Assembly (NCBI RefSeq): GCF_014960965.1
Contig: NZ_CP063169.1
Coordinates: forward strand, 343,581-407,580
DNA: 64,000 nucleotides
Reading direction: 5' to 3'
From: Ruania alkalisoli
Lineage (GTDB): Bacteria > Actinomycetota > Actinomycetes > Actinomycetales > Beutenbergiaceae
The translations under genes and the position numbers were made by a program. Position 1 is the stretch's first letter. Each line of letters starts with the position of its first letter. Below, one piece after another: positions 33,060-52,433 of this stretch. Below the pieces are notes generated by a model, which was given only the letters and a program-made list of their open reading frames with translations, had not been told where the DNA came from and searched no databases.

Positions 33060-37571
<4,512 letters not shown>

Positions 37572-37577
37572 CTGCGC

Positions 37578-37607
37578 TTGACATCAACTGTGTGCTGTAT
37601 ACAGAAT
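37578..37607 (+). promoter_or_regulatory. Promoter of the sugar ABC transporter operon
   Basis: A consensus TTGACA (37578-37583) is followed after 18 bases by CAGAAT (37602-37607), which matches four of six -10 bases. The GntR-type palindrome lies in the spacer and over the -10, an ideal position for repression. Confidence 0.6.
37595..37604. promoter_or_regulatory. GntR-type operator (CTGTATACAG) before the transporter operon
   Basis: Identical 10-base palindrome to the one at 33995-34004. It overlaps the predicted promoter of the solute-binding-protein gene. Confidence 0.7.
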
Positions 37608-37641
37608 ACAAGCACTGAAACCCAGACCAAAGGTGGTTCCC

Positions 37642-38964
37642 ATGTCTCAGTCCGTGACGCGCTCCCGCACGCGCATCCGAACCCACGGCGCCGTGGCCGT
37701 GCTCGCCGCCGGCACCTTGCTCCTCAGCGCGTGCAGCGGCAGCGGAAACAGTGGTGGCGGCTCCAGTGACGGCAGTTCCACCGTCACCTGGTCCACCTGG
37801 GGCAGCCCGGAGGAGCTCGAGCGCTTCGAAGGCTTCAACGAGCAGTTCATGGCCGACCACGAGGACATCACCGTGGAATTGCAGCCGACCGCCGGCTACA
37901 GCGACTACCACTCCAAGTTGCTCGCCCAGCTCACCTCGGGCACGGCGCCTGACGTGTTCTACGTGGGCGATGACCGGATCGGTGAATTCGTCGACGCCGG
38001 TGTGCTGCTGCCGCTGAGCGACCTGATGGACTCCGATGCCAGTCAGACCCCGGTGGACGCATTCAACCCGGGCGTGCTCGGCGCCGGGCAGACCGAGGAT
38101 GGCGAGATCTACGCCGTGCCGAACGACGTGAACCCGGACGCCCTCTGGTACGACAAGGAGGCGCTCGCCGCCGCCGGGATCACCGAGGACCCGGCCGAGC
38201 TGGCCGCCAACGATGAGTGGACCACCGAGACGTTCCTGGAGATGAACGACAAGCTCGCCGAGGCGGGCCTGATCGGCTCTATGTACTGGAATTACTACGG
38301 CACCCACTGGAGCTGGGTCTCCTCCCAGGGGGGCACCGCCTACGACGAGAGCGGCACCTTTGTCGGCAACACGGACGCCACCACGGTGGACGCGGTGCAG
38401 ACTTTCGCCGACTACATGCAGGACGGCACCTTCGTGGTGGCCGACACCATGCCGGAGGGCGCCGGAGCGGACTCGGAGTTCGTGACCCACGGCGCCGGCT
38501 TCTTCGCCCAGGGTCGCTACACGATCGGCACGCTGGAGGAAGCCGGGGTGGCCGAGTCCTACGACATCGTGCGCTGGCCGACCCCCGACGGCACCGCCGC
38601 CCCGACCACCGTGGCCGCCTCCTACCTGGTGATCAACGCCGACACCCCCGACCCCGACGCCGCCTTCGCGTTCTGGACCGCCTACCTCTCCCAGGAGGGG
38701 CAGGAGTTCCGGCTCTCCGAGGGTGGGAACGCCGTCCCCTCGATCGAGGGCGCGGACGACGTGGTGCTCGCCGACGGGTACCCCGAGCACGCACAGACGT
38801 TCCTCGACATGCGCGACATGGGCTTTGCGAACTATGCCGCTGAGTCCACCGTGCCGGGCCTGAGCACTGACATCAACGAGGCCATGCTGAACCTGTACCA
38901 GGGTGCCGGCGGCACCGCGCAGGAGACGCTCGACCAGATCGCCGCTCTCGCCGCGGACGGCTGA
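37642..38964 (+). CDS. Sugar ABC transporter substrate-binding lipoprotein
   Basis: 440 residues from the ATG at 37642 (AAAGGTGG upstream). The signal sequence AVLAAGTLLLSAC gives a lipobox, followed by a Gly/Ser tether. The mature protein (VTWSTWGSPEELERFEGFNEQF, LLAQLTSGTAPDVFYVGDDRI, YAVPNDVNPDALWYDKEAL, ARQGRYTIG-like FAQGRYTIGTLEEAG) is a family 1 extracellular sugar-binding protein. It works with the two permeases encoded next. The shared ATPase (MsiK-type) is not in the window, as is usual in actinobacteria. Promoter controlled by the TGTATACA operator. Confidence 0.92.
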   Translation: MSQSVTRSRTRIRTHGAVAVLAAGTLLLSACSGSGNSGGGSSDGSSTVTWSTWGSPEELERFEGFNEQFMADHEDITVELQPTAGYSDYHSKLLAQLTSGTAPDVFYVGDDRIGEFVDAGVLLPLSDLMDSDASQTPVDAFNPGVLGAGQTEDGEIYAVPNDVNPDALWYDKEALAAAGITEDPAELAANDEWTTETFLEMNDKLAEAGLIGSMYWNYYGTHWSWVSSQGGTAYDESGTFVGNTDATTVDAVQTFADYMQDGTFVVADTMPEGAGADSEFVTHGAGFFAQGRYTIGTLEEAGVAESYDIVRWPTPDGTAAPTTVAASYLVINADTPDPDAAFAFWTAYLSQEGQEFRLSEGGNAVPSIEGADDVVLADGYPEHAQTFLDMRDMGFANYAAESTVPGLSTDINEAMLNLYQGAGGTAQETLDQIAALAADG

Positions 38965-38980
38965 GGCGACCGCCGCGCTG

Positions 38981-39922
38981 ATGACTGCTTCGACTCCTGC
39001 CCCGACTGCCCGCCCGGCGGCGCCGAGGGAGCTCCGTGGGGAGCCCACCTGGCGCCGCCGGCGGCGGCGGTGGGGGCTCGCCTTCGTCGGGCCGCAGGTG
39101 CTCGGCATGACGATCTTTGTGGCCCTGCCGTTCGCCGGGAGCATGGTGCTCGCCTTCGCGGACTGGAACGGGCTCACTGAGCTCAGCTGGGTCGGGTTCG
39201 ACAACTTCCGCGACCAGTTGACCAGCCCCAAGTTCGGCCGTTCGATCCTGAACACCCTGCTGATCGCCCTGATCACCGTGCCGATCGGGCTCGGCCTGGC
39301 CGTCACCATCGCGGTGGCGTTGGAGAAACTGAAGGTCCGCACCCTCTATCTGCTGCTGTTCTTCGCCCCCGTGGTCACCTCCCAGGTCGCGGTGGCCACG
39401 ATCTGGCAGCAGCTGTTCCGCGCCGACGGGATCGTCTCGGGCTGGATCGCCCGGGTGCTGCCCATCGACCCACCGAACTGGCTCGGCGACCCGCGGTTGG
39501 CGCTCATCGCGGTGTGCATCGTGACCGTGTGGGCCTCGCTCGGTCTGAACGTGGTGATCTTCCTCGCCGGACTGCAGAACGTCCCGCCCACTGTGGTGGA
39601 GGCCGCCCGGATCGACGGCGCCGGCCCGGTCGCCTTGTTCTGGCGGATCCGGCTGCCCTTGCTGAGTCCGATCATGTTCTTCTCGTCAGTGATCGCGTTC
39701 ATCAGCTCACTGCAGACGTTCGACCTGGTGTTCATCCTGACCGACGGTGGCCCGCAGGACGCCACCCGCACGATCGTGCTGCACATCTACGACGTTGGCT
39801 TCGGCAGGTTCCAGTTCGGCCTGGCCAGCGCCGCCTCGATCATTCTGCTGGGCATCACCTTGGTGATCACCGCGGCGCAGTTCGGGGTGCAGAAGTACTT
39901 CGTGCACTACGAGGAGGACTGA
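38981..39922 (+). CDS. Sugar ABC transporter permease (MalF-like)
   Basis: 313 residues. The first ~40 residues are Pro/Ala/Arg-rich and cytoplasmic, then six membrane helices. The EAA loop reads VPPTVVEAARIDGAGPVALFWRIRLPLLSP, and a conserved end segment is FTDGGP-like ILTDGGPQDATRTIVLHIY. The start is an ATG 16 bases after the binding-protein stop with little Shine-Dalgarno sequence. Pairs with the following permease. Confidence 0.92.
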   Translation: MTASTPAPTARPAAPRELRGEPTWRRRRRRWGLAFVGPQVLGMTIFVALPFAGSMVLAFADWNGLTELSWVGFDNFRDQLTSPKFGRSILNTLLIALITVPIGLGLAVTIAVALEKLKVRTLYLLLFFAPVVTSQVAVATIWQQLFRADGIVSGWIARVLPIDPPNWLGDPRLALIAVCIVTVWASLGLNVVIFLAGLQNVPPTVVEAARIDGAGPVALFWRIRLPLLSPIMFFSSVIAFISSLQTFDLVFILTDGGPQDATRTIVLHIYDVGFGRFQFGLASAASIILLGITLVITAAQFGVQKYFVHYEED

Positions 39923-39929
39923 GGGCCCG

Positions 39930-40796
39930 ATGACTGCTGTCTCTGTGACTGCCCCGAGCAATCGCCGCCGCGTACCGGCCACCACGGTGGTACTGCACAC
40001 CCTGCTGATCGTGGGCGGCCTGGCCATGGTCTTCCCCTTCATCTGGATGATCCTGACCAGCCTGAAGACGCTGCCCCAGCTGCTCGCCGAGCCTCTCAGC
40101 CTGCTACCGGACCCGCTCACGGGCGAGAACTACCCGGAAGCGCTCAGCGCGATGCCGTTCGGCCGGGCGTATCTGAACTCGGTGTACATCGCAGGTCTGA
40201 TCATCGCCGGCACCCTGGTGACCGCCTCGATGGCCGGGTACGCCTTTGCACGCATCCCGTTCCGCGGCTCCAAGGCCCTCTTCATCGGCTTCCTCGCCAC
40301 CCAGATGATCCCCAAGCAGGTCACTCTCGTGCCGTTCTACCTGCTGATGTCGAGACTCGGCTGGGTGGACTCGCACCTCGCGCTGATCGTGCCGGCGATG
40401 CTGGCGAACCCGTTCGCGGTGTTCTTGATGCGTCAGTTCGTGCTGAGCTTGCCGAAGGAACTGGACGAGGCTGCCACCTGTGACGGTGCCGGCCCGGTGC
40501 GCACCTTCTTCGCGGTGGTGCTGCCGAATCTGCGGCCCGGGCTGAGCGCGCTGGCGATCATCGTGGCGCTGGACACCTGGAACAACTTCCTCTTCCCGCT
40601 GGTGCTGCTGAACTCTACCGAGCTGTTCACCGTGCCGCTGCTGCTCGCAGGCTTCGAGGGGCAGCACGGCGGGGTCAATTACGGCCTGGTGATGGCAGCC
40701 AGCGCGGTCTCCACGGTGCCGGTGCTGATTCTGTTCGTGATCGCGCAGAAGCGGATCCTGAACTCGATGGCCACGTCCGGGCTGGGTGGTCGTTGA
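39930..40796 (+). CDS. Sugar ABC transporter permease (MalG-like)
   Basis: 288 residues, six membrane helices, EAA loop LPKELDEAATCDGAGPVRTFFAVVLPNLRPGL, and the family features WMILTSLKT near the N-terminus and DTWNNFLFPL near the C-terminus. GAGGG precedes the ATG. Its stop overlaps the start of the hydrolase gene (TGATG), so all four genes from the binding protein on form one operon. Confidence 0.92.
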   Translation: MTAVSVTAPSNRRRVPATTVVLHTLLIVGGLAMVFPFIWMILTSLKTLPQLLAEPLSLLPDPLTGENYPEALSAMPFGRAYLNSVYIAGLIIAGTLVTASMAGYAFARIPFRGSKALFIGFLATQMIPKQVTLVPFYLLMSRLGWVDSHLALIVPAMLANPFAVFLMRQFVLSLPKELDEAATCDGAGPVRTFFAVVLPNLRPGLSALAIIVALDTWNNFLFPLVLLNSTELFTVPLLLAGFEGQHGGVNYGLVMAASAVSTVPVLILFVIAQKRILNSMATSGLGGR

Positions 40797-42529
40797 TGGA
40801 GGGACTCGATCTGGACGCCATCCCCCTCTCCCTGCCCGGCTCCCGGCTGTTCCTCACCGCTGAGGCCGAGGGTGTGGTGCTGCACAGCGCCGAGTACGAA
40901 CGGTCCCGCACCGAGGTCCGGCTGCTGGAGGCCGTGCAGGTCCTGGCCCCCGACGGCGCACCTCGCGCCCTCGACCTGATCGAGCCGGGGGTGCTGGCCT
41001 GGGGGCCGGTCACGCTCACCTTCGCCGGCGAGCGTGCCCTCTCCCTGGGATCGGCCGATGGCGCGGGCATGCGTCTGCGCGCTCGCATCCCGGCCCGGAT
41101 GGGCCTGGTGGTGCAGGAGTGGCCCGACGGCGTCCTGATCAGGACTGATCTGCGCGTCGCCTCGCGGGTATGGGTCCGTGGGGCGCGTCTGGACGAGGCG
41201 ACCGGTGATCTGCTGGCCGACGGCCCGGTGACCGTGCACCTGGATGAGCCGCCACCGGCACCCGCGTCGGAGCCATACCCGCGGCCGGATCCAGCCACGC
41301 ACCAGCGTCACCTCGCCGCCACCCGAGCCACCTGGGCCGAGTGGTTGGCCCGCTGCCCCCGGGTGCGCGAGGACCTGGCCCCGATGGCCGTCCTGTGCTG
41401 GTACGTGCTGGGCGCGAACACGGTCCGCCTCGGCGCCGACGGCGGGGGAGGGCTGGGTGTGGTGCCTGCGCTGCGCGGCTACGCCGGCGTCTGGCAGTGG
41501 GACGCCTACTTCATCGCTAGCGGCCTGCGGCATGGCGCCCCGGCGCTCGCGGCCGAGCAGCTCAACCTGGTGCTCGGCACGGCCCGTCCGGACGGCCAGC
41601 TGGTGGACGTGGTCCACGACGACGGCGTGCTCGCCTCCTCCGACGATCTTCCGCCCGGTGACCTGGAGAACCTGCGCCGGCTCGCCTCCCCGGTGGCCGA
41701 CCCGGACGACCCGGTGGCCCTGACCAAGCCGCCGCTGGCCGCATGGGCGCTGGCCCGGCTTGCTGACGGTCCGCACCCGCCCGAGCCCGCCTGGCTGGAC
41801 CGTCAGATGGAGCGGGTACTCGCCTCCCAGCGCTGGTGGTTCGCCACGCAGGACACCGACGGTGACGGCCTGCCCGAATACACCCACCCGTATTCCTCCG
41901 GGCTGGACGACTCGCCCGTCTTCGACGCCGCGGTACCCCTGACGTCCCCGGATCTGGCCGCCTATCTGGTGGTGCAGGACCAGCTCCTCGCTGATTGGGC
42001 CCGGCGGACGGGCCGCCCCGAGGTCGAGGCCGAATGCCGCGCCCGGCGCACGGCCACCCGGGCGGCCCTGCTCGGACTCTGGGACGGGACCCGGTTCCGC
42101 GCCCGCGGCCACCACGGCACGGTCGAGACCGAGACCATCCTGGAGCTGCTGCCCCTGCTCATCGGTGACCTGCCGGCGGACCTGACGGACGCCGTCGTGG
42201 GCCGCCTGGGCGATCACTTCGCCGCCCCGGTGGGCGTACCCACGGTGGCCACGGACGATCCGGACTTCGACCCGGATCAGATGTGGCGCGGCCCCAGCTG
42301 GGTGAGCACCAACGCGCTGCTCGCGCTCGGGCTGCGGGCCAGCGGCCACCCGGACGAGGCTCGGTGCGTTGCCGAGGCGACCGTGGCGATGGTGGTCGGT
42401 GCCGGTGGGCCGCACGAGTACGTCAACCCCGTCACAGGCGACAAGCCCCCTCGTGCGGTCACCGCATTCTCTTGGTCGGCCGCACTGTACGTGGACCTGG
42501 CGGTGGCGCTCACTGAAGGCTCGTTGTGA
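40796..42529 (+). CDS. GH63/MGH1-like (alpha/alpha)6 glycoside hydrolase
   Basis: 577 residues. After an N-terminal beta-rich part of ~165 residues, the (alpha/alpha)6 barrel shows clan GH-G motifs: VWQWDAYFIASGL, TKPPLAAWALARL, YTHPYSSGLDDSPVFD, MWRGPSWVSTNALLALGL and PHEYVNPVTGDKPP. These match GH63 glucosidases and mannosylglycerate-hydrolase-like enzymes, with the catalytic Asp in LDDSP and Glu near the end. Cytoplasmic. Coupled to the transporter, so it acts on the imported saccharide together with LacZ. The exact linkage is not deducible. Confidence 0.8.
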   Translation: MEGLDLDAIPLSLPGSRLFLTAEAEGVVLHSAEYERSRTEVRLLEAVQVLAPDGAPRALDLIEPGVLAWGPVTLTFAGERALSLGSADGAGMRLRARIPARMGLVVQEWPDGVLIRTDLRVASRVWVRGARLDEATGDLLADGPVTVHLDEPPPAPASEPYPRPDPATHQRHLAATRATWAEWLARCPRVREDLAPMAVLCWYVLGANTVRLGADGGGGLGVVPALRGYAGVWQWDAYFIASGLRHGAPALAAEQLNLVLGTARPDGQLVDVVHDDGVLASSDDLPPGDLENLRRLASPVADPDDPVALTKPPLAAWALARLADGPHPPEPAWLDRQMERVLASQRWWFATQDTDGDGLPEYTHPYSSGLDDSPVFDAAVPLTSPDLAAYLVVQDQLLADWARRTGRPEVEAECRARRTATRAALLGLWDGTRFRARGHHGTVETETILELLPLLIGDLPADLTDAVVGRLGDHFAAPVGVPTVATDDPDFDPDQMWRGPSWVSTNALLALGLRASGHPDEARCVAEATVAMVVGAGGPHEYVNPVTGDKPPRAVTAFSWSAALYVDLAVALTEGSL

Positions 42530-42533
42530 CTCC

Positions 42534-43184
42534 TCAGTCGGCGGCCGGCTCGGCCACCTCGAGCAGCCGCTGCGTACCGCCCGCCCAGTTGTTCGCGAGC
42601 GCCTGCTTCGCGCCTTCGACGTCTCCCTCGGCCAGGCACGTGGCGATGGCGGCGTGCTCCTCGGTACGGCGAGCAATGAGCTGCTCGTCGTTGACGAGCA
42701 GGGCCTCGTACCTGTGCATCGTGGCCCGGACGTTCTCGATCACGACCAGCAGCCGCTGGTTCGGGCAGACCGAGAGCATGTGCCGGTGCCAGGAGTCATC
42801 TCGCTGGTTCAGAATGGCGTGCTGCACCGTCTCCTCGGCGAAATCGTCGGACATCGTCTGTAGCTCTGCCCCGATCCGGCGCAGGTCGTCGATATCGCTG
42901 AGATCGAGGGCCAGGCCCTCCAGGGTGGAGAGCACGGGTGCCAGCTCGACCAGCTCGGTCGCGCTCAGCGGCAGGAAGCGGAAGCCCCGGCCAGACTCGC
43001 TGGCGATCTGTCCTTCACCTTCGAGGGCGATGAGGGCTTCACGCAGCGGCGTGCGGGAGACACCGAGCTCGGCCGCGAGCTGGACCTCGTTGATCTGCTC
43101 ACCTGGCTTCACCGAACCCGTCCGCATGCGATGCAGGATCTCCTCGCGCACCTGGGCGCGCAGCGCGGAGCGCTTGATGACCAT
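42534..43184 (-). CDS. GntR-family (FadR/FCD) transcriptional regulator
   Basis: 216 residues from the ATG at 43184, with AGGAGGA five bases before it. The N-terminal winged helix carries INEVQLAAELGVSRTPLREALIALEGEGQI, and the C-terminal FCD domain has the metal-ligand pattern (HRHMLSVCPNQRLLVVIENVRA, EEHAAIATCLAEGDVEGA). FCD regulators respond to carboxylic acids. It is convergent with the transporter operon (four-base gap) and divergent from the gcvPA-like operon. The three TGTATACA sites nearby are its probable targets, making it the local regulator of the island. Confidence 0.9.
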   Translation of the reverse strand: MVIKRSALRAQVREEILHRMRTGSVKPGEQINEVQLAAELGVSRTPLREALIALEGEGQIASESGRGFRFLPLSATELVELAPVLSTLEGLALDLSDIDDLRRIGAELQTMSDDFAEETVQHAILNQRDDSWHRHMLSVCPNQRLLVVIENVRATMHRYEALLVNDEQLIARRTEEHAAIATCLAEGDVEGAKQALANNWAGGTQRLLEVAEPAAD

Positions 43185-43290: not shown

Positions 43291-43298
43291 TGTATACA
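43291..43298. promoter_or_regulatory. GntR-type operator (TGTATACA) between gntR and gcvPA-like genes
   Basis: The TGTATACA core is followed by AAATACAG, similar to GAATACAAG after the site at 37595. It lies in the 170-base divergent region about 57 bases before the gcvPA-like start, so it may control that operon and perhaps the regulator gene. Confidence 0.65.
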
Positions 43299-43354
43299 AA
43301 ATACAGTGGACGTGACAATCGATGGACGCCGCCGTCCGAGGGAAGTGATGACTA

Positions 43355-44752
43355 GTGACCACACCGTTCGTGCACCCCTACCTACCGAACAGCGCCCCCG
43401 AAGTGCGGGCCGAGATGCTCGCCGCCGTGGGCGCGGAGTCGGTGGAGGAGTTCTACGCCGACATCCCTGCCGCTCTCCGGCTCACCGGTGACCTGGACCT
43501 GCCTGAGCCCTTGGTTGCCGAGGCCGACCTGAGCCGGCACGTTCGTGGCATCCTCGGCAAGAACCGCACCCGGCTGTCCTTCCTCGGCGCCGGCACGTAC
43601 CACCACCACGTGCCCGCCGTCGTGGACGAAGTGATCGGCCGCAGTGAGTTCCTCACCGCCTACGCCGGTGAGCCGTACGAGGACCACGGCCGCTTCCAGG
43701 CACTGTTCGAGTACGCCTCGCTCCTGGCCGAGCTGCTCGAGGTGGAGGTGGTGAACGTGCCCACCTACGACAGCCTGCAGGCGACGGCCACCGCCCTGTC
43801 CATGGCCGTGCGCGCCACCGGACGCACCCGCATCCTGGTCGCCTCCGACGTCCGCGCCGACGTGTTGAGCAAGGTGGAGGACTTCATCCGCCCGTATGCG
43901 AGCCTCGAGCACGTGCCCACCGTCGATGGCATCGCCGACGTCGCCGCAGTGACCGCACTCCTCGGCGACGACGTGGCCGCCGTCTGGGTGAGCACCCCCT
44001 CGGCCACCGGCGCGGTGGAGACTGCGATGACGCAGCTCGCCGAGGCGACCCACGCCGTCGGCGGCCTGCTGGTGGCCCAGACCGACCCGATCGGCCTCGG
44101 GGTGCTCACTCCGCCGGCCGCCCAGGGCGCCGACATCACCTGCGGTGACATCCAGTCCCTCGGCATCCACGCGTGGTTTGGCGGCGGCCACGCCGGCTTC
44201 GTCGGCGTGGCCGACGATCCGCGGCTCGTGATGGAGATGCCGCACCGGTTGTTCGGTCTCGCCTCCACCTCGGTGGAGGGTGAGTACGGCTTCGGGGACG
44301 TCGCCTGGGATCGCACCGCCTTCGCCCACCGCGAGGAGGGGAAGGAGTGGGTGGGCACCGCTGCCGCCCTGTGGGGGATCGCCGCCGGGGTGTATCTGGC
44401 ACTCATGGGACCGCAGGGGATGGTCGAGCTCGGTGAGACGCTGCTGGCCCGCACCGCCTACGCCCGGAAGGTGCTCACCGCCCTGCCGGGGGTGAGTGAG
44501 GCCGACGGCGCCGTGCACCTGCGCGAGTTCGTCCTGCACCTGCCCCGCCCGGCCGCCGAGGTGGTCGAGGAGCTGCGCGCGAAGGAGATCGAAGCCGGTG
44601 TGGTGCTCGGCGAGCACGAACTGCTCGTGTGCGTCACCGAGATGACCACGCAGGCCGATATCGACCTGCTCGCCCGTGAGCTCGGTGCCGTTCTCGGCAC
44701 CGCTACTGACGCCACCACCCACACCCCCGTCCTCGAGGAGGTCGCCCGATGA
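43355..44752 (+). CDS. Divergent glycine dehydrogenase (P-protein) subunit 1-like, GcvPA family
   Basis: 465 residues from a GTG at 43355. Overall it aligns with GcvPA: VEEFYADIPAALRL, FLGAGTYHHHVPAVVDEVIGRSEFLTAYAGEPYEDHGRFQALFEYASLLAELLEVEV, then GADITCGDIQSLG. However, otherwise invariant motifs are changed: TPYQPEISQGTLQ is replaced by AGEPYEDHGRFQ, YDGATA by YDSLQA, and the REQHIRREKATSNICTNQ stretch by TAFAHREEGKEWVGTAAA. This makes normal glycine-cleavage function doubtful and points to a related PLP decarboxylase or dehydrogenase for another amino compound. The stop overlaps the start of the partner subunit (ATGA). Confidence 0.8.
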   Translation: MTTPFVHPYLPNSAPEVRAEMLAAVGAESVEEFYADIPAALRLTGDLDLPEPLVAEADLSRHVRGILGKNRTRLSFLGAGTYHHHVPAVVDEVIGRSEFLTAYAGEPYEDHGRFQALFEYASLLAELLEVEVVNVPTYDSLQATATALSMAVRATGRTRILVASDVRADVLSKVEDFIRPYASLEHVPTVDGIADVAAVTALLGDDVAAVWVSTPSATGAVETAMTQLAEATHAVGGLLVAQTDPIGLGVLTPPAAQGADITCGDIQSLGIHAWFGGGHAGFVGVADDPRLVMEMPHRLFGLASTSVEGEYGFGDVAWDRTAFAHREEGKEWVGTAAALWGIAAGVYLALMGPQGMVELGETLLARTAYARKVLTALPGVSEADGAVHLREFVLHLPRPAAEVVEELRAKEIEAGVVLGEHELLVCVTEMTTQADIDLLARELGAVLGTATDATTHTPVLEEVAR

Positions 44753-46332
44753 GTCTGCCGATCGCCACCAAGCCCGCCCTGCGCCGCTTCCACCAGGCAC
44801 GCTGGGACGAGCCGATCGTGTTCGAGCTGGACGCCCCGGGGGAGCGCGGTGTGCTGCCACCTCAGGTTGAGCCCGGCGTGCGGGAGACCGTGGGCGACGT
44901 GCTCGCCGACCTGCCCGAGTCCCTGCGTCGCCCTGCTCCGCCGACGCTGCCCCGGATCGGGCAGGCCCGGGTGCTTCGGCACTACCTGCGCCTGTCCCAG
45001 GAGAATCTCGGCGCGGACCTGAACGTCGACGTCGGCCAGGGCACCTGCACGATGAAGTACGCCCCCAAGGTGAACGACCAGCTGGTTGCCGACCCCGGTC
45101 TGCGGGACGTGCACCCGCTGCAGGGTGAGGAGTCGGTGCAGGGGGCGCTGGAGATCCTGTGGCGCACCGAGCAGGCGCTGACGGCGATCTCCGGGATGGA
45201 CAGGGTGAGCCTGCACTCCACCGGCGGCTCGAGCGCCATCTGGACGAACGTGGCGATGATCCGCGCCTATCACGCCTCCCGTGGTGAGGCCGAGCAGCGC
45301 GACGAGGTGATCACCACGATCTTCTCCCACCCCTCGAACGCCGCCGCGGCCGCCGTGGCCGGCTACAAGGTGATCACCATCCACCCGGACGCCGACGGCT
45401 ACCCGGATCTGGACGCGCTCAGGGCGGCCCTGTCCGAGCGGACCGCGGCGATCATGGTGACCAACCCGGAGGACACCGGGATCTACAACCCCCGGATCGT
45501 CGACTGGGTGGAGGCGGCGCACGCCGTCGGGGCGCTCGCCTCCTACGACCAGGCGAACGCGAACGGCATCCTCGGCATCACCCGCGCCCGGGACGCCGGT
45601 TTCGACGTGTGCCACTTCAACCTGCACAAGACCTTCGGCACCCCGCACGGGTCCGGCGGTCCCGGTGCCGGGGCGAACGGGGTGGCCGAGCACATGGCGC
45701 CGTTCCTGCCCGGGCCGATGGTCGAGCGCGACGGCGACCGGTTCCGTCTGGCCGCCGGCGGTGAGCTGTCCATCGGTGCGGTCTCGGCGTTCTACGGCGT
45801 GATCCCCACCATCGCCAAGGCCTACGCCTGGATCGCCGCCCTCGGCGCGCCCGGACTGCGGGCCGTGGCCGAGACCGCGGTGCTGAACAACAACTACCTG
45901 ATGAGCAAGATCCTCGCGATCCCAGGTGCCTCCGCCCCGTACGCGACGGGAAGGCGCCGGGTGGAGCAGGTGCGCTACTCCTGGCAGGAGCTGTACGAAG
46001 ACACGGGCATCACCTCCGAGGAGATCGGGGTGCGGGCCGCCGACTACGGCACCCACTACTGGACAAGCCACCACCCGTACGTGGTGCCGCAGCCGTTCAC
46101 CCTGGAGCCGACCGAGTCCTACTCCATGGCCGAGCTGGACGAGTACGCGGCCATCCTCGCGCAGGTGGCTCACGAAGCCCGGACGGACCCGGAGATGGTG
46201 CGTACCGCACCGCACAACCAGACCGTGCATCACACCCATCACGACGACCTGGACGACCCGGACCGGTGGGCGGTCACCTGGCGCGGCTACCTGCGCAAGT
46301 ACCCCGACGCCCCCCAGCACCGCCGACCGTGA
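44749..46332 (+). CDS. Divergent glycine dehydrogenase (P-protein) subunit 2-like, GcvPB family
   Basis: 527 residues. It keeps the PLP lysine (Lys294 in HFNLHKTFGTPHG), the pre-lysine Gly-rich GPGAGANGVAEH and the TNPEDTGIYNP and DQANANGIL motifs of P-protein. The usual YPLGSCTMKYNPK loop is changed to DVGQGTCTMKYAPK (~residues 94-106), and AYxRxLGxxGL to AYAWIAALGAPGL. A long His/Asp-rich C-terminal tail follows. It pairs with the preceding subunit. Canonical GcvT, GcvH and Lpd genes are absent from the neighbourhood. Confidence 0.82.
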   Translation: MSLPIATKPALRRFHQARWDEPIVFELDAPGERGVLPPQVEPGVRETVGDVLADLPESLRRPAPPTLPRIGQARVLRHYLRLSQENLGADLNVDVGQGTCTMKYAPKVNDQLVADPGLRDVHPLQGEESVQGALEILWRTEQALTAISGMDRVSLHSTGGSSAIWTNVAMIRAYHASRGEAEQRDEVITTIFSHPSNAAAAAVAGYKVITIHPDADGYPDLDALRAALSERTAAIMVTNPEDTGIYNPRIVDWVEAAHAVGALASYDQANANGILGITRARDAGFDVCHFNLHKTFGTPHGSGGPGAGANGVAEHMAPFLPGPMVERDGDRFRLAAGGELSIGAVSAFYGVIPTIAKAYAWIAALGAPGLRAVAETAVLNNNYLMSKILAIPGASAPYATGRRRVEQVRYSWQELYEDTGITSEEIGVRAADYGTHYWTSHHPYVVPQPFTLEPTESYSMAELDEYAAILAQVAHEARTDPEMVRTAPHNQTVHHTHHDDLDDPDRWAVTWRGYLRKYPDAPQHRRP

Positions 46333-47525
46333 TCAACGCTGCCGCACCTCGGCTGGGGTTGGTGGTCAACCCGGTCGCCGGCCTTGGTGGACCGGCCGGG
46401 TTGAAGGGCAGCGACGGCGCCGCGATCCAGGCCGCTGCCCGTGCCGCTGGGGTGCGGGCGCGGGCGGGCGAGCGAGCCCGACAGGCGCTGGAATCCCTCC
46501 CTGCCGGGACGCCGGTGCTCACCGGGCCCGGCGACCTCGGCGAGGACGTGACGCGCGAGGCCGGGATGGTGCCGGTCCCGGTCGACCTCCCCGACCCAAC
46601 CGGGACCGGCGCGGACACCCGAGTAGTTACCGCGGCCCTGGTGGCGGCCGGTGCGGAGCTGGTGCTCTTCGCCGGTGGCGACGGGACCGCCCGGGACGTG
46701 GCTGCCGGGCTCACGGTCTCGGGATCGAGAATCCCAGTGCTCGGGGTGCCAGCCGGGGTGAAGATGTACTCGGCGTGCTTCGCGGTCTCCCCACAGGCCG
46801 CCGGGGCGCTCGCGGCTGACCTGCTCGTCGGCGCCGCCACACTGGTGGATGCGGAGGTGCTGGACGTGGACGAGGAGCAGGTCCGCACCGGGCGAGTGGA
46901 CCCCAGACTGTTCGCCCTGGTCCGCACACCGGCGCACCCCCAGCGTTCCCAGGGCCGCAAGGTCGCCACCCCCACCGGTGACGGCGCGGCCGTGGCCTCC
47001 GTGGTGGCCGGGCTGGCCGCCCAGCTACGCCCCGGGGTGACCTACCTCGTCGGCCCCGGAGGCACCACGGCCGCCCTGCTGCGGCACCTCGGTCTGAGCG
47101 GCACCCCATTGGGCGTGGACGTGCTGCGCGACGGTGAGCTGCTCGCCACGGACATGGACGAGACCACGGCACTGGCCGCCGTCGGGGCATCGCCCGAGGG
47201 GACCGGCGGGACAGACGGCCATGACAGGCCAGGGGCGGGAGTCGTCGTCGGGGTGGTCGGCGGACAGGGGTTCCTGTTCGGCCGCGGCAACCAGCAGCTC
47301 TCCGCGCGGGTCCTGACGGCGGCCCTCGGCGATGCTGATCACCTCGCCCGCGACCGCCTCCTCGTCGGCGCCACCGAGCGCAAGCTCACCGAGCTCGGCG
47401 GCCGGCCGCTCCTGATCGACACCGGCGAACCGGGCATCGATCTTGCTCTGTCCGGCATGCTCCGGGTGACCACCGGGCCCGGACGCACCAGCATGTACCC
47501 AGCAACCGCAGCGAACGGAGTATGA
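46329..47525 (+). CDS. ATP-NAD kinase-fold protein (AcoX-like)
   Basis: 398 residues from a GTG that overlaps the gcvPB-like stop by three bases. It has GLVVNPVAGLGGPAGLKGSDG at the N-terminus, the GGDGTARDVAAG motif near residue 120 typical of NAD/diacylglycerol/sphingosine-kinase folds, then PVLGVPAGVKMYSACFAVSP. This corresponds to the AcoX-type branch of the family, whose biochemical role is unproven; it often sits with dehydrogenase genes. It could phosphorylate a metabolite or a nucleotide cofactor. Co-transcribed with the P-protein-like genes and the dehydrogenase that follows. Confidence 0.82.
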   Translation: MINAAAPRLGLVVNPVAGLGGPAGLKGSDGAAIQAAARAAGVRARAGERARQALESLPAGTPVLTGPGDLGEDVTREAGMVPVPVDLPDPTGTGADTRVVTAALVAAGAELVLFAGGDGTARDVAAGLTVSGSRIPVLGVPAGVKMYSACFAVSPQAAGALAADLLVGAATLVDAEVLDVDEEQVRTGRVDPRLFALVRTPAHPQRSQGRKVATPTGDGAAVASVVAGLAAQLRPGVTYLVGPGGTTAALLRHLGLSGTPLGVDVLRDGELLATDMDETTALAAVGASPEGTGGTDGHDRPGAGVVVGVVGGQGFLFGRGNQQLSARVLTAALGDADHLARDRLLVGATERKLTELGGRPLLIDTGEPGIDLALSGMLRVTTGPGRTSMYPATAANGV

Positions 47526-47527
47526 CC

Positions 47528-48289
47528 ATGAATGACCTCACCGGCAAGACTGCCATCGTCACCGGGGGAGCTGGCGGGATCGGCTCGGCCACCGCCCGCG
47601 CGTTCGCCGCGGCGGGTGCGCAGGTGGCCGTGGTGGACCTGGATGGCGAGGCCGCTCAGGCCGTGGCTGACGCCATCGTGGCCGACGGCGGTCGCGCCCT
47701 CGCCATCGAGGCGGACGTCTCTGACGAGGCCGCTGTGACTGCGCTGGTGGACCGGGTGCAGGTTGAGCTCGGCGGGATCGACGTGCTGTTCAACAACGCC
47801 GGCATCATCCGCCGCACCACCGCCACCGAGCTGGACGCCGACACCTGGGACCTGGTGATGGCGGTGAACGTGCGCTCGATCTTCCTGCTGTGCAAGTACG
47901 TGGTGCCGGTGATGGCCGCGGCCGGTGGTGGATCGATCGTCAACACCGGCTCCGGCTGGGGTCTCAAGGGCGGCGGCCGGGCACTTTCCTACTGCGCGTC
48001 GAAGGGTGCCGTGGTGAACATGACCCGGGCGCTCGCGATCGACCACGGCCCGCAGGGAATCCGGGTGAACTCCATCAATCCCGGCGATGTCGACACCGGG
48101 ATGCTGCCCGACGAGGCCCGCCAGCTCGGCCAGGACCCCGCCGAGTTCCTCGCCGAGTCCGTGGACCGGCCGCTGGGCCGGATGGGTCAGCCCGAGGAGA
48201 TCGCCGCGGCTGTGGTGTGGCTGGCCAGTGACGCCGCCTCCTATGTGACCGGCGCGGCGCTCGTGGCCGACGGGGGCGGGATCGCCTGA
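47528..48289 (+). CDS. Short-chain dehydrogenase/reductase
   Basis: 253 residues from the ATG at 47528, which has GGAG seven bases upstream; an ATG at 47522 is in frame but too close to it. The Rossmann motif TGGAGGIGSATARAFA, acidic VVDLD after beta2 (NAD preference), NNAG, Ser of the NTGSGW strand, the YCASK catalytic pair and PGDVDTGM are intact. It probably oxidises a sugar or polyol or reduces a keto intermediate of the pathway encoded by this island. Confidence 0.9.
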   Translation: MNDLTGKTAIVTGGAGGIGSATARAFAAAGAQVAVVDLDGEAAQAVADAIVADGGRALAIEADVSDEAAVTALVDRVQVELGGIDVLFNNAGIIRRTTATELDADTWDLVMAVNVRSIFLLCKYVVPVMAAAGGGSIVNTGSGWGLKGGGRALSYCASKGAVVNMTRALAIDHGPQGIRVNSINPGDVDTGMLPDEARQLGQDPAEFLAESVDRPLGRMGQPEEIAAAVVWLASDAASYVTGAALVADGGGIA

Positions 48290-51260: not shown

Positions 51261-51357
51261 GTTCCCCGCCTGTGAGGTCGGACCCGTATGGACTCGTGAT
51301 CTCAGTCGGTGATACGCGGTGGAGACGGAGAACGAGACCGGTAGCATCAAACGCACA

Positions 51358-51454
51358 CCATCCAGAGCGGCTGAGAGTCCTGGCTCGACGACGCCGCAGC
51401 AACCCCTCAACGGAAGCCTCCCGCGGGGAAGGGTGCTACAGCCAGGTTCGATGG
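51358..51454 (+). ncRNA. SAM riboswitch (S-box, SAM-I clan) of the metF-metE region
   Basis: The sequence shows the S-box pattern: CCATC (51358-51362) pairs with GATGG (51450-51454) as P1. AGAGCGGCTGAGAGTCC is followed by GACGCCGCAGCAACC, with GCGGC/GCCGC as P2. A GC-rich P3 covers ~51412-51428. Then comes AAGGGTGCTACAGCCAGG, the conserved GGTGCTA near P3/P4. It lies 70 bases before metF. SAM binding would lower expression of methyltetrahydrofolate and methionine synthesis. Which subclass (SAM-I or a SAM-I/IV variant) applies is not certain. Confidence 0.8.
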
Positions 51455-51524
51455 AGTTATCGATGCAGGCACAGTGTTTCCGTTCCGTGGCGCGCACGCC
51501 ATACCCGACCGGCGGTGACCGGAC

Positions 51525-52433
51525 ATGACCACCGCCACTCTTTACCGCAGCCCGCGGGCCACGCCCAGTGTCTCGTTCGAGCTCTACCCGCCGCGCACCC
51601 CGCGCGGGCGGGAGACGATCGGCCGCACCATCGGCGCGCTCGCCAGCCAGATCCCGGACTACTTCTCGATCACCTACGGTGCCTCGGGCTCCACCAGGAC
51701 CACGTCCCGGGAATTGATCTGCCGCGTTCTCGACGACACCCCGGTCACGCCGCTCGCGCACCTGACGTGTGTGGGGGCCAGTGCCGAGGACCTGTCCGAG
51801 TATGTCGCCACGCTGCTCGAAGCAGGGGTACGGGACTTCCTCGCGCTCCGGGGCGACCCGCCCGCTGGGGAGCCCGACTGGCAGCCGCACCCGCAGGGCC
51901 TGACGCGCGCCAGCGAGCTGGTCCACCTGCTGCGTCAGACCGCTCGCGAGCACCTCGGCGACGAGGGAGACGAGGTCAGCATCAGCGTGGCCACCTATCC
52001 GGGTGGCGCCTACGCCGACGACGGCACGCCCATGATCGCCCGGGACGACGTCGCGGCGCTGCTCGAGAAGCAGGCCGCGGGGGCGGACTTCGCGATCACC
52101 CAGCTCTTCTACGACGCGCGCCACTACGCCGAGCTGGTGCGCCAGGCCCGCGCCGCCGGGGTGCATATCCCGATCGTTCCCGGTGTGCTCCCGCTCACCG
52201 ACCCGAACCGGCTGCGCCGGATGGTCGAGCTGACCGGTGTGCCCGTGCCACCCGACCTGCTCGACCATCTGGACTCAGCCGCCGACAAGGACGAGGCCTA
52301 CCAGCGCGGTCTCGCCGCCAGTGTCCGTCTCGTGCACGAGGTCGTGGAGACCGGTGCGCCGGGCATCCACTTCTACACCTTCAACTCCTCGCGAGCAGTG
52401 CTCGACCTGCTACGCGAGTCCGGTCTGCGCTGA
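51525..52433 (+). CDS. metF: 5,10-methylenetetrahydrofolate reductase
   Basis: 302 residues, the size of bacterial MetF. TIM-barrel features: VSFELYPPRTPRGRE, with the catalytic Glu; YFSITYGASGSTRTTSRE; AHLTCVGASAED; DFLALRGDPPAG; and the FAD-binding GADFAITQLFYDARHYAELV and PIVPGVLPL. It makes 5-methyltetrahydrofolate for MetE, encoded next. Preceded by the SAM riboswitch, which fits methionine feedback. Confidence 0.93.
   Translation: MTTATLYRSPRATPSVSFELYPPRTPRGRETIGRTIGALASQIPDYFSITYGASGSTRTTSRELICRVLDDTPVTPLAHLTCVGASAEDLSEYVATLLEAGVRDFLALRGDPPAGEPDWQPHPQGLTRASELVHLLRQTAREHLGDEGDEVSISVATYPGGAYADDGTPMIARDDVAALLEKQAAGADFAITQLFYDARHYAELVRQARAAGVHIPIVPGVLPLTDPNRLRRMVELTGVPVPPDLLDHLDSAADKDEAYQRGLAASVRLVHEVVETGAPGIHFYTFNSSRAVLDLLRESGLR

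Follow-up and report, generated by a model that had tools for sequence, protein, structure and literature searches.

A GcvPA/GcvPB-like enzyme pair of Ruania alkalisoli shares a palindromic motif with glycosidase and sugar-import operons

Layout of the locus and a shared motif

We examined a 64,000-nucleotide stretch of Ruania alkalisoli DNA (NZ_CP063169.1, positions 343,581 to 407,580; hereafter the window), in which the list of open reading frames (ORFs) places a set of four genes at 43355-48289 on the + strand. The first two encode PA', a GcvPA-like subunit (43355..44752, 465 residues), and PB', a GcvPB-like subunit with a pyridoxal 5'-phosphate (PLP) lysine, K294 (44749..46332, 527 residues). 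They are followed by KIN, a protein of the ATP-NAD/diacylglycerol-kinase fold (46329..47525, 398 residues, GTG start at 46329), and by a short-chain dehydrogenase/reductase (SDR) oxidoreductase (47522..48289, 255 residues, PF13561). All three junctions are 4-nucleotide overlaps of start and stop codons (ATGA, GTGA and ATGA), in keeping with the translational coupling of the pair to a kinase-fold protein and an SDR described in an earlier note on this DNA. Newly found here is a palindromic motif that ties the PA'PB' operon to glycosidase and importer operons.

Divergent from PA' lies a gene for an FCD-type GntR regulator (42534..43184, - strand, likely ATG at 43184; PF00392 and PF07729). The importer operon, on the + strand, encodes a carbohydrate-type ATP-binding cassette (ABC) solute-binding lipoprotein (37633..38964, PF01547), permease 1 (38903..39922, recognized as an ORF with relatives at related loci, its true start probably lying downstream), permease 2 (39930..40796, PF00528) and a GH63-like glycosidase of the MGH1/YgjK type (40793..42529). 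This glycosidase scores 202 bits against PF22422 and 55.9 bits, far below the cut-off of 625, against the YgjK-type model PRK10137; it matches YgjK weakly among PDB sequences, and no signal peptide is apparent by eye. The same holds by eye for the signal peptide of a GH2 beta-galactosidase of the EbgA/LacZ type (34027..37119, + strand, presumed GTG start at 34027; PF02836 358 bits, PRK10340 1165.6 bits versus a cut-off of 1284), which is followed by an EbgC/YhcH-like small subunit (37116..37571, + strand, start presumed; PRK10202 79.7 bits, cut-off 146, and PF04074 below cut-off). A DHDPS-family gene (33060..33980, - strand; PF00701, 106 bits) diverges from the beta-galactosidase gene, with a putative operator common to both.

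The octamer TGTATACA occurs three times in the 64 kb, against 0.05 copies expected, and none of 100 shuffles reached three. The sites lie between the DHDPS-family gene and the GH2 beta-galactosidase with its EbgC-like partner (putative operator copy 1, 33989..34003, - strand, octamer at 33996-34003), before the ABC-importer/GH63 operon (copy 2, 37596..37610, + strand, TGTATACAGAATACA) and in the gap between the GntR gene and PA' (copy 3, 43291..43305, + strand, TGTATACAAAATACA). With up to two mismatches allowed, the extended palindromic motif TGTATACARAATACA is found at these same three sites only in the whole 4.45-Mb genome, and its reversed control not at all; the scan gave four rows, one of them an overlapping palindromic reading, and copy 1 matches the 15-mer with two mismatches. 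Among 19 related loci examined, 11 have one copy of the octamer and 8 have none; seven actinobacterial loci that lack the exact octamer carry, as weaker evidence, a one-mismatch form upstream of PA' or beside the GntR gene, and in the Chloroflexi locus L058 the sole one-mismatch octamer falls inside a permease gene.

Because of the three-site motif, a putative operator of the FCD-GntR protein, we tie PA'-PB'-KIN-SDR to the beta-galactosidase and sugar-import operons. The PA'PB' operon is very probably part of a glycoside regulon, and the catabolic regulator proposed earlier thus acquires a divergent FCD-GntR gene and candidate sites at all three operons. Sugar regulons with a GH63 YgjK-type enzyme and an EbgA or GH42 beta-galactosidase have in common with this one the ABC importer, the alpha- and beta-glycosidases and the GntR-type regulator gene, whereas in the window the shared motif stands before PA'-PB'-KIN-SDR as well.

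Relation of PA'PB' to the glycine cleavage enzyme

Both subunits exceed the NCBIfam cut-offs (PA' 433.7 versus 364 for GcvPA; PB' 552.3 versus 441 for GcvPB), so that an annotation pipeline would label them glycine dehydrogenase, and each of the seven annotated plasmid records examined gives the PA'/PB' genes the name "aminomethyl-transferring glycine dehydrogenase". Their closest solved sequence relatives are two Thermus P-protein subunits (best PDB match of PB' 1wyt_B, 283.8 bits), and the predicted structure of PB', with a predicted local distance difference test score (pLDDT) of 77.8, has P-proteins at ranks 1-19 of its fold matches. With the split GcvPA/GcvPB of Thermus (1WYT/1WYU) the pair shares the two-subunit fold type I PLP architecture, the PLP lysine and the Asp, His and Asn around PLP. 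Such scores and the retained fold and PLP site favor the view that PA'PB' is an additional glycine decarboxylase, divergent in sequence and served by the H- and T-protein of the canonical operon.

The residues of the two subunits point elsewhere. We counted them in 86 PB' and 79 PA' rows against 19 (PB) and 20 (PA) canonical rows; rows covering less than 85% of the query are excluded from trees and counts, and a canonical split row with an over-long ORF (L167, labelled fused in the PB tree) is left out of the residue counts. The PLP lysine K294 (in LHKTF), said in the earlier note to be kept, is present in 86/86 PB' rows together with D267, N270 and H194. The four P-protein motifs described there as lost or changed are indeed so in the window pair: YPLGSCTMKYNPK is altered to DVGQGTCTMKYAPK, its CTMKY core retained with Ser replaced by Thr in 86/86, and YDGATA to YDSLQA, and TPYQPEISQGTLQ and REQHIRREKATSNICTNQ are lost, reading AGEPYEDHGRFQ and RTAFAHREEGKEWVGTAA. 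Unlike the canonical rows, PB' has T99, D242, N381 and W361 (all 86 rows), N247 (85/86) and E406 (81/86). PA' has neither the canonical YTPY nor the canonical H-protein-interface motif. The second Tyr of YTPY (human Y161 and Y164) is a gap in 79/79 rows, and the first is retained in 50/79. REQHIRR(E/D)KATSNICT, the H-protein interface predicted in a docking study (PMC7259800), whose residue numbers are shifted uniformly by 43 to match 6i33, is replaced family-wide, for example Cys by G334 in 79/79 and Ala by G329 in 63/79. Fixed or close to fixation in 79-86 relatives, the main changes are more than chance.

The phylogeny suggested in the earlier note separates the pair in the same way. In quick trees without bootstrap, with support given by the Shimodaira-Hasegawa-like approximate likelihood ratio test (SH-aLRT), the 86 PB' rows stand on one side of a single branch (SH-aLRT 100, stem 1.16) that attaches beside the split canonical forms, and the 79 PA' rows likewise on one side of a single branch (SH-aLRT 99), both outside the canonical P-proteins. 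Genome searches have a score gap, with PB' at 620-904 bits and the next, canonical proteins at 426 or less. The genome scan with eight PB' queries used the best 80 of 579 confirmed stretches, so that neighborhood statistics rest on the nearest PB' relatives; the 579 may include canonical members and are not a family count. KIN and PB' are present in the same 3 genomes of a 396-genome phylum sample. Judged from these comparisons of sequence, PA'PB' is a separate, widespread enzyme family of bacteria and archaea. Three genomes (G018, G019 and G031) have two PA'-type matches each besides a canonical P-protein (about 210 and 179, 170 and 170, and 206 and 161 bits), a hint that substrates differ within the family. 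In six others (G268, G397, G450, G460, G479 and G597) the canonical split GcvPB match passes one in-frame TAG near the C-terminus, which may be alignment beyond the stop.

Thirty-one PA'PB' genomes were searched for glycine cleavage genes: that of the window, G005, and 29 more traced from 30 loci picked out of the best 80. A clear separate canonical P-protein is present in 29 of them (the window's own and 28 of the 30 others), the exceptions being G008, with a contig-edge fragment, and a Bathyarchaeota metagenome-assembled genome (G035), where none was found. GcvT is found at E<=1e-50 in 30 of the 31, weakly in G008, and GcvH in 28 of the 29 genomes searched for it, a point in favor of borrowed H-protein that also leaves GcvH absence uninformative as a test of H-independence. 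In R. alkalisoli itself gcvT, gcvH and gcvP occupy one separate stretch with two adjacent glycine riboswitch aptamers, the second gcv operon for which the earlier note advised a search. The window has no GcvT or GcvH (phmmer, one reference sequence each) and no Lpd-type Pyr_redox_dim domain, as had been claimed, and gcvT/gcvH lie near 0 of 89 PA'PB' loci, window included; 20 canonical neighborhoods have GcvT with GcvH in 12 cases, GcvH alone in 1, neither in 7, and KIN in none. Of 8 canonical loci scanned, 5 have a glycine riboswitch; none was found in nine PA'PB' stretches (the window and 8 loci).

A backup glycine decarboxylase is thus most improbable, given the separate canonical P-protein, the lack of gcvT/gcvH linkage, the pair's own clade, the replaced active-site Tyr loop and predicted H-interface and the lack of a glycine riboswitch; the motif common to glycosidase operons also speaks against it. 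In its clade, Tyr loop, H-interface motif, lack of gcvT/gcvH linkage and lack of a glycine riboswitch, and by its usual KIN partner, the pair differs from the split GcvPA/GcvPB. We regard PA'PB' as almost certainly not the glycine cleavage enzyme. The earlier note's idea that the pair is a PLP enzyme acting on some other amino substrate is well supported, the pair lying outside the canonical P-protein rows and not being the sole P-protein of its genome.

The kinase-fold partner and the neighboring genes

KIN is present in 77 of the 89 PA'PB' loci of the neighborhood survey. Its assignment to the ATP-NAD-kinase fold holds, with PF01513 (61.3 bits) and PF20143 (50.4 bits) both above cut-off and GGDG invariant in 47 rows. 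These it shares with the ATP-NAD kinase family including AcoX, from which it differs in lacking any PDB relative at E<=0.001 (the best profile match has E 0.044) and in having a PLP enzyme as partner; Foldseek gave no match at E<=0.001. "AcoX-like" is presumably best taken as an unconfirmed name for KIN. AcoX of acetoin operons is called a predicted NAD kinase in PMC9676059.

Among the 29 nearest loci, 22 have an SDR that scores 245 bits or more against that of the window. KIN might be a dedicated NAD kinase giving NADP to this SDR, with PA'PB' acting on an unphosphorylated amino acid as a decarboxylase or C-C lyase. However, KIN stays with PA'PB' at loci with no such SDR above 60 bits in the stretch (for example L066 and L069), its fold matches lipid and sphingosine kinases just as well, and it would be uncommon for an operon to bring its own NADP supply; we consider this arrangement unlikely. 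KIN relatives also occur away from the pair. On a Peptoclostridium acidaminophilum plasmid (L029, 8998-11074) one adjoins a class I/II PLP aminotransferase-like gene near hydG, with no PA'PB' in the stretch, and on an archaeal Natronosalvus plasmid KIN (L031) is unlinked from PA'PB' (L026) and neighbors ornithine-cyclodeaminase, aminotransferase, DHDPS, SDR and CoA-transferase genes.

The 30 loci with PB' nearest that of the window (window included) carry a beta-galactosidase in 20 cases, a GH63-type enzyme in 16, both in 16 and a related sugar permease in 18; for the other 59 loci the corresponding numbers are 0, 0, 0 and 4. The beta-galactosidase is of GH2 type in the window and L058 and of GH42 type in the other 18 loci, and the GH63 enzyme is MGH1-like in some loci and a true YgjK in others, that of L050 scoring 616 bits to PRK10137 (cut-off 625) and 481 bits to the solved YgjK. 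Since unrelated enzymes occupy the same two slots, both glycosidase activities appear to be important. Among distant-clade PB' loci, 8 have DHDPS homologues, as does L031; carnitine-, hydroxyproline- and lysine-type readings of these neighborhoods were set aside because the neighbors vary among loci. A primary-amine oxidase gene lies near KIN-PA'-PB' with a permease and an AMP-ligase at L096 (921.7 bits) and L023 (annotated), which suggests an amine intermediate in that clade. Elsewhere in the window, a SAM (S-adenosylmethionine) riboswitch (RF00162, 56.3 bits, 51355-51457, + strand) lies just upstream of an ORF (51525-52433) that by eye we take to be methylenetetrahydrofolate reductase (MetF).

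A proposed pathway and its substrate

A PLP enzyme needs an amine, the motif links alpha-glucoside and beta-galactoside enzymes, and a kinase is coupled to the pair; for these reasons we propose an amino glycoconjugate as substrate. The ABC importer would take up a small glycoconjugate, from which a GH63-type alpha-glycosidase and the GH2 beta-galactosidase, both probably cytosolic and of presumed specificity, would remove the sugars. The freed amino aglycone would pass to KIN, PA'PB' and the SDR, the last stage of one regulon for breakdown of a polar amino compound. KIN would phosphorylate a hydroxyl of the amino substrate, and PA'PB', a heteromeric PLP enzyme of P-protein fold no longer working with lipoyl H-protein, would then eliminate phosphate and ammonia or else cleave or decarboxylate at C-alpha. 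The FCD-GntR repressor would sit on the three operators until released by a pathway intermediate. We give a probability of roughly 0.55 to this reading as a whole, a lipoyl-independent PLP enzyme and a kinase degrading the amino aglycone of an alpha-Glc/beta-Gal conjugate, and that KIN and PA'PB' act on the released aglycone is, in itself, slightly favored.

A common natural conjugate of this kind is Glc-alpha-1,2-Gal-beta-O-5-hydroxylysine, found in collagen, and YgjK prefers Glc-alpha-1,2-Gal. Animals degrade hydroxylysine with a kinase and then a PLP phospho-lyase, and it is for this reason that we propose a kinase followed by a PLP lyase; 5-hydroxylysine from the collagen unit is, by this analogy, our leading guess for the aglycone, a tentative one. 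KIN would then be a hydroxylysine kinase and PA'PB' a phosphohydroxylysine lyase, resembling in proposed chemistry the animal hydroxylysine kinase and 5-phosphohydroxylysine phospho-lyase but belonging to unrelated protein families at both steps. Another amine on an alpha-Glc/beta-Gal sugar (an amino sugar, a sphingoid base or an amino alcohol) would allow the same order of kinase and PLP lyase; against this speaks that the carbohydrate-type importer, together with glycosidases in which no signal peptide is apparent, fits a small polar solute, and we hold these alternatives together to be rather improbable.

Several observations weigh against the glycoconjugate proposal. No database match names the substrate, the listed regulon genes include no aldehyde dehydrogenase, and the window GH63 enzyme is weakly YgjK-like. 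Searches gave no KIN in G118 or for L074, L060, L062 and L104, and for L067 just a 24.8-bit match. In front of the importer, the four Nonomuraea/Kitasatospora loci examined (L048, L053, L057 and L059) have no copy of the motif, one-mismatch forms included. In the PB' model pLDDT is below 50 at 84-102 and 300-304, which leaves the model without reliable positions for T99 and the lysine loop. We see the glycoside front end in Actinomycetota and one Chloroflexi locus (L058, beta-galactosidase only) and nowhere else; 10 of the 30 near loci lack both glycosidases (seven from Chloroflexi and one each from Bathyarchaeota, Caldithrix and Holophagaceae), some of them having short flanks, and the glycoside would therefore be one feedstock of a wider core. 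Distant-clade neighbors differ (class III aminotransferase, SSADH, 3HCDH, amine oxidase, AMP-ligase, CoA-transferase and DHDPS), and the family may accordingly cover several substrates.

Glycine metabolism is over-predicted wherever PA'PB' occur, since they are annotated as glycine dehydrogenase. The two-subunit P-protein architecture is, to our knowledge, known for one reaction only; PA'PB' possibly catalyze a new one, and a second, lipoyl-independent reaction would, if true, be new chemistry. We found no paper on the PA'-PB'-KIN module in a literature search with limited coverage of subscription journals. The regulon points to a concrete substrate class, and it is conceivable, if doubtful, that PA'PB' with KIN are an unrecognized amino-compound catabolic core of bacteria and archaea that in Actinomycetota completes a pathway for collagen Glc-alpha-1,2-Gal-beta-O-5-hydroxylysine, KIN being a hydroxylysine kinase of NAD/lipid-kinase fold and PA'PB' a phospho-lyase or decarboxylase. 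If true, the hydroxylysine assignment would explain the use of collagen glycans by some actinobacteria.
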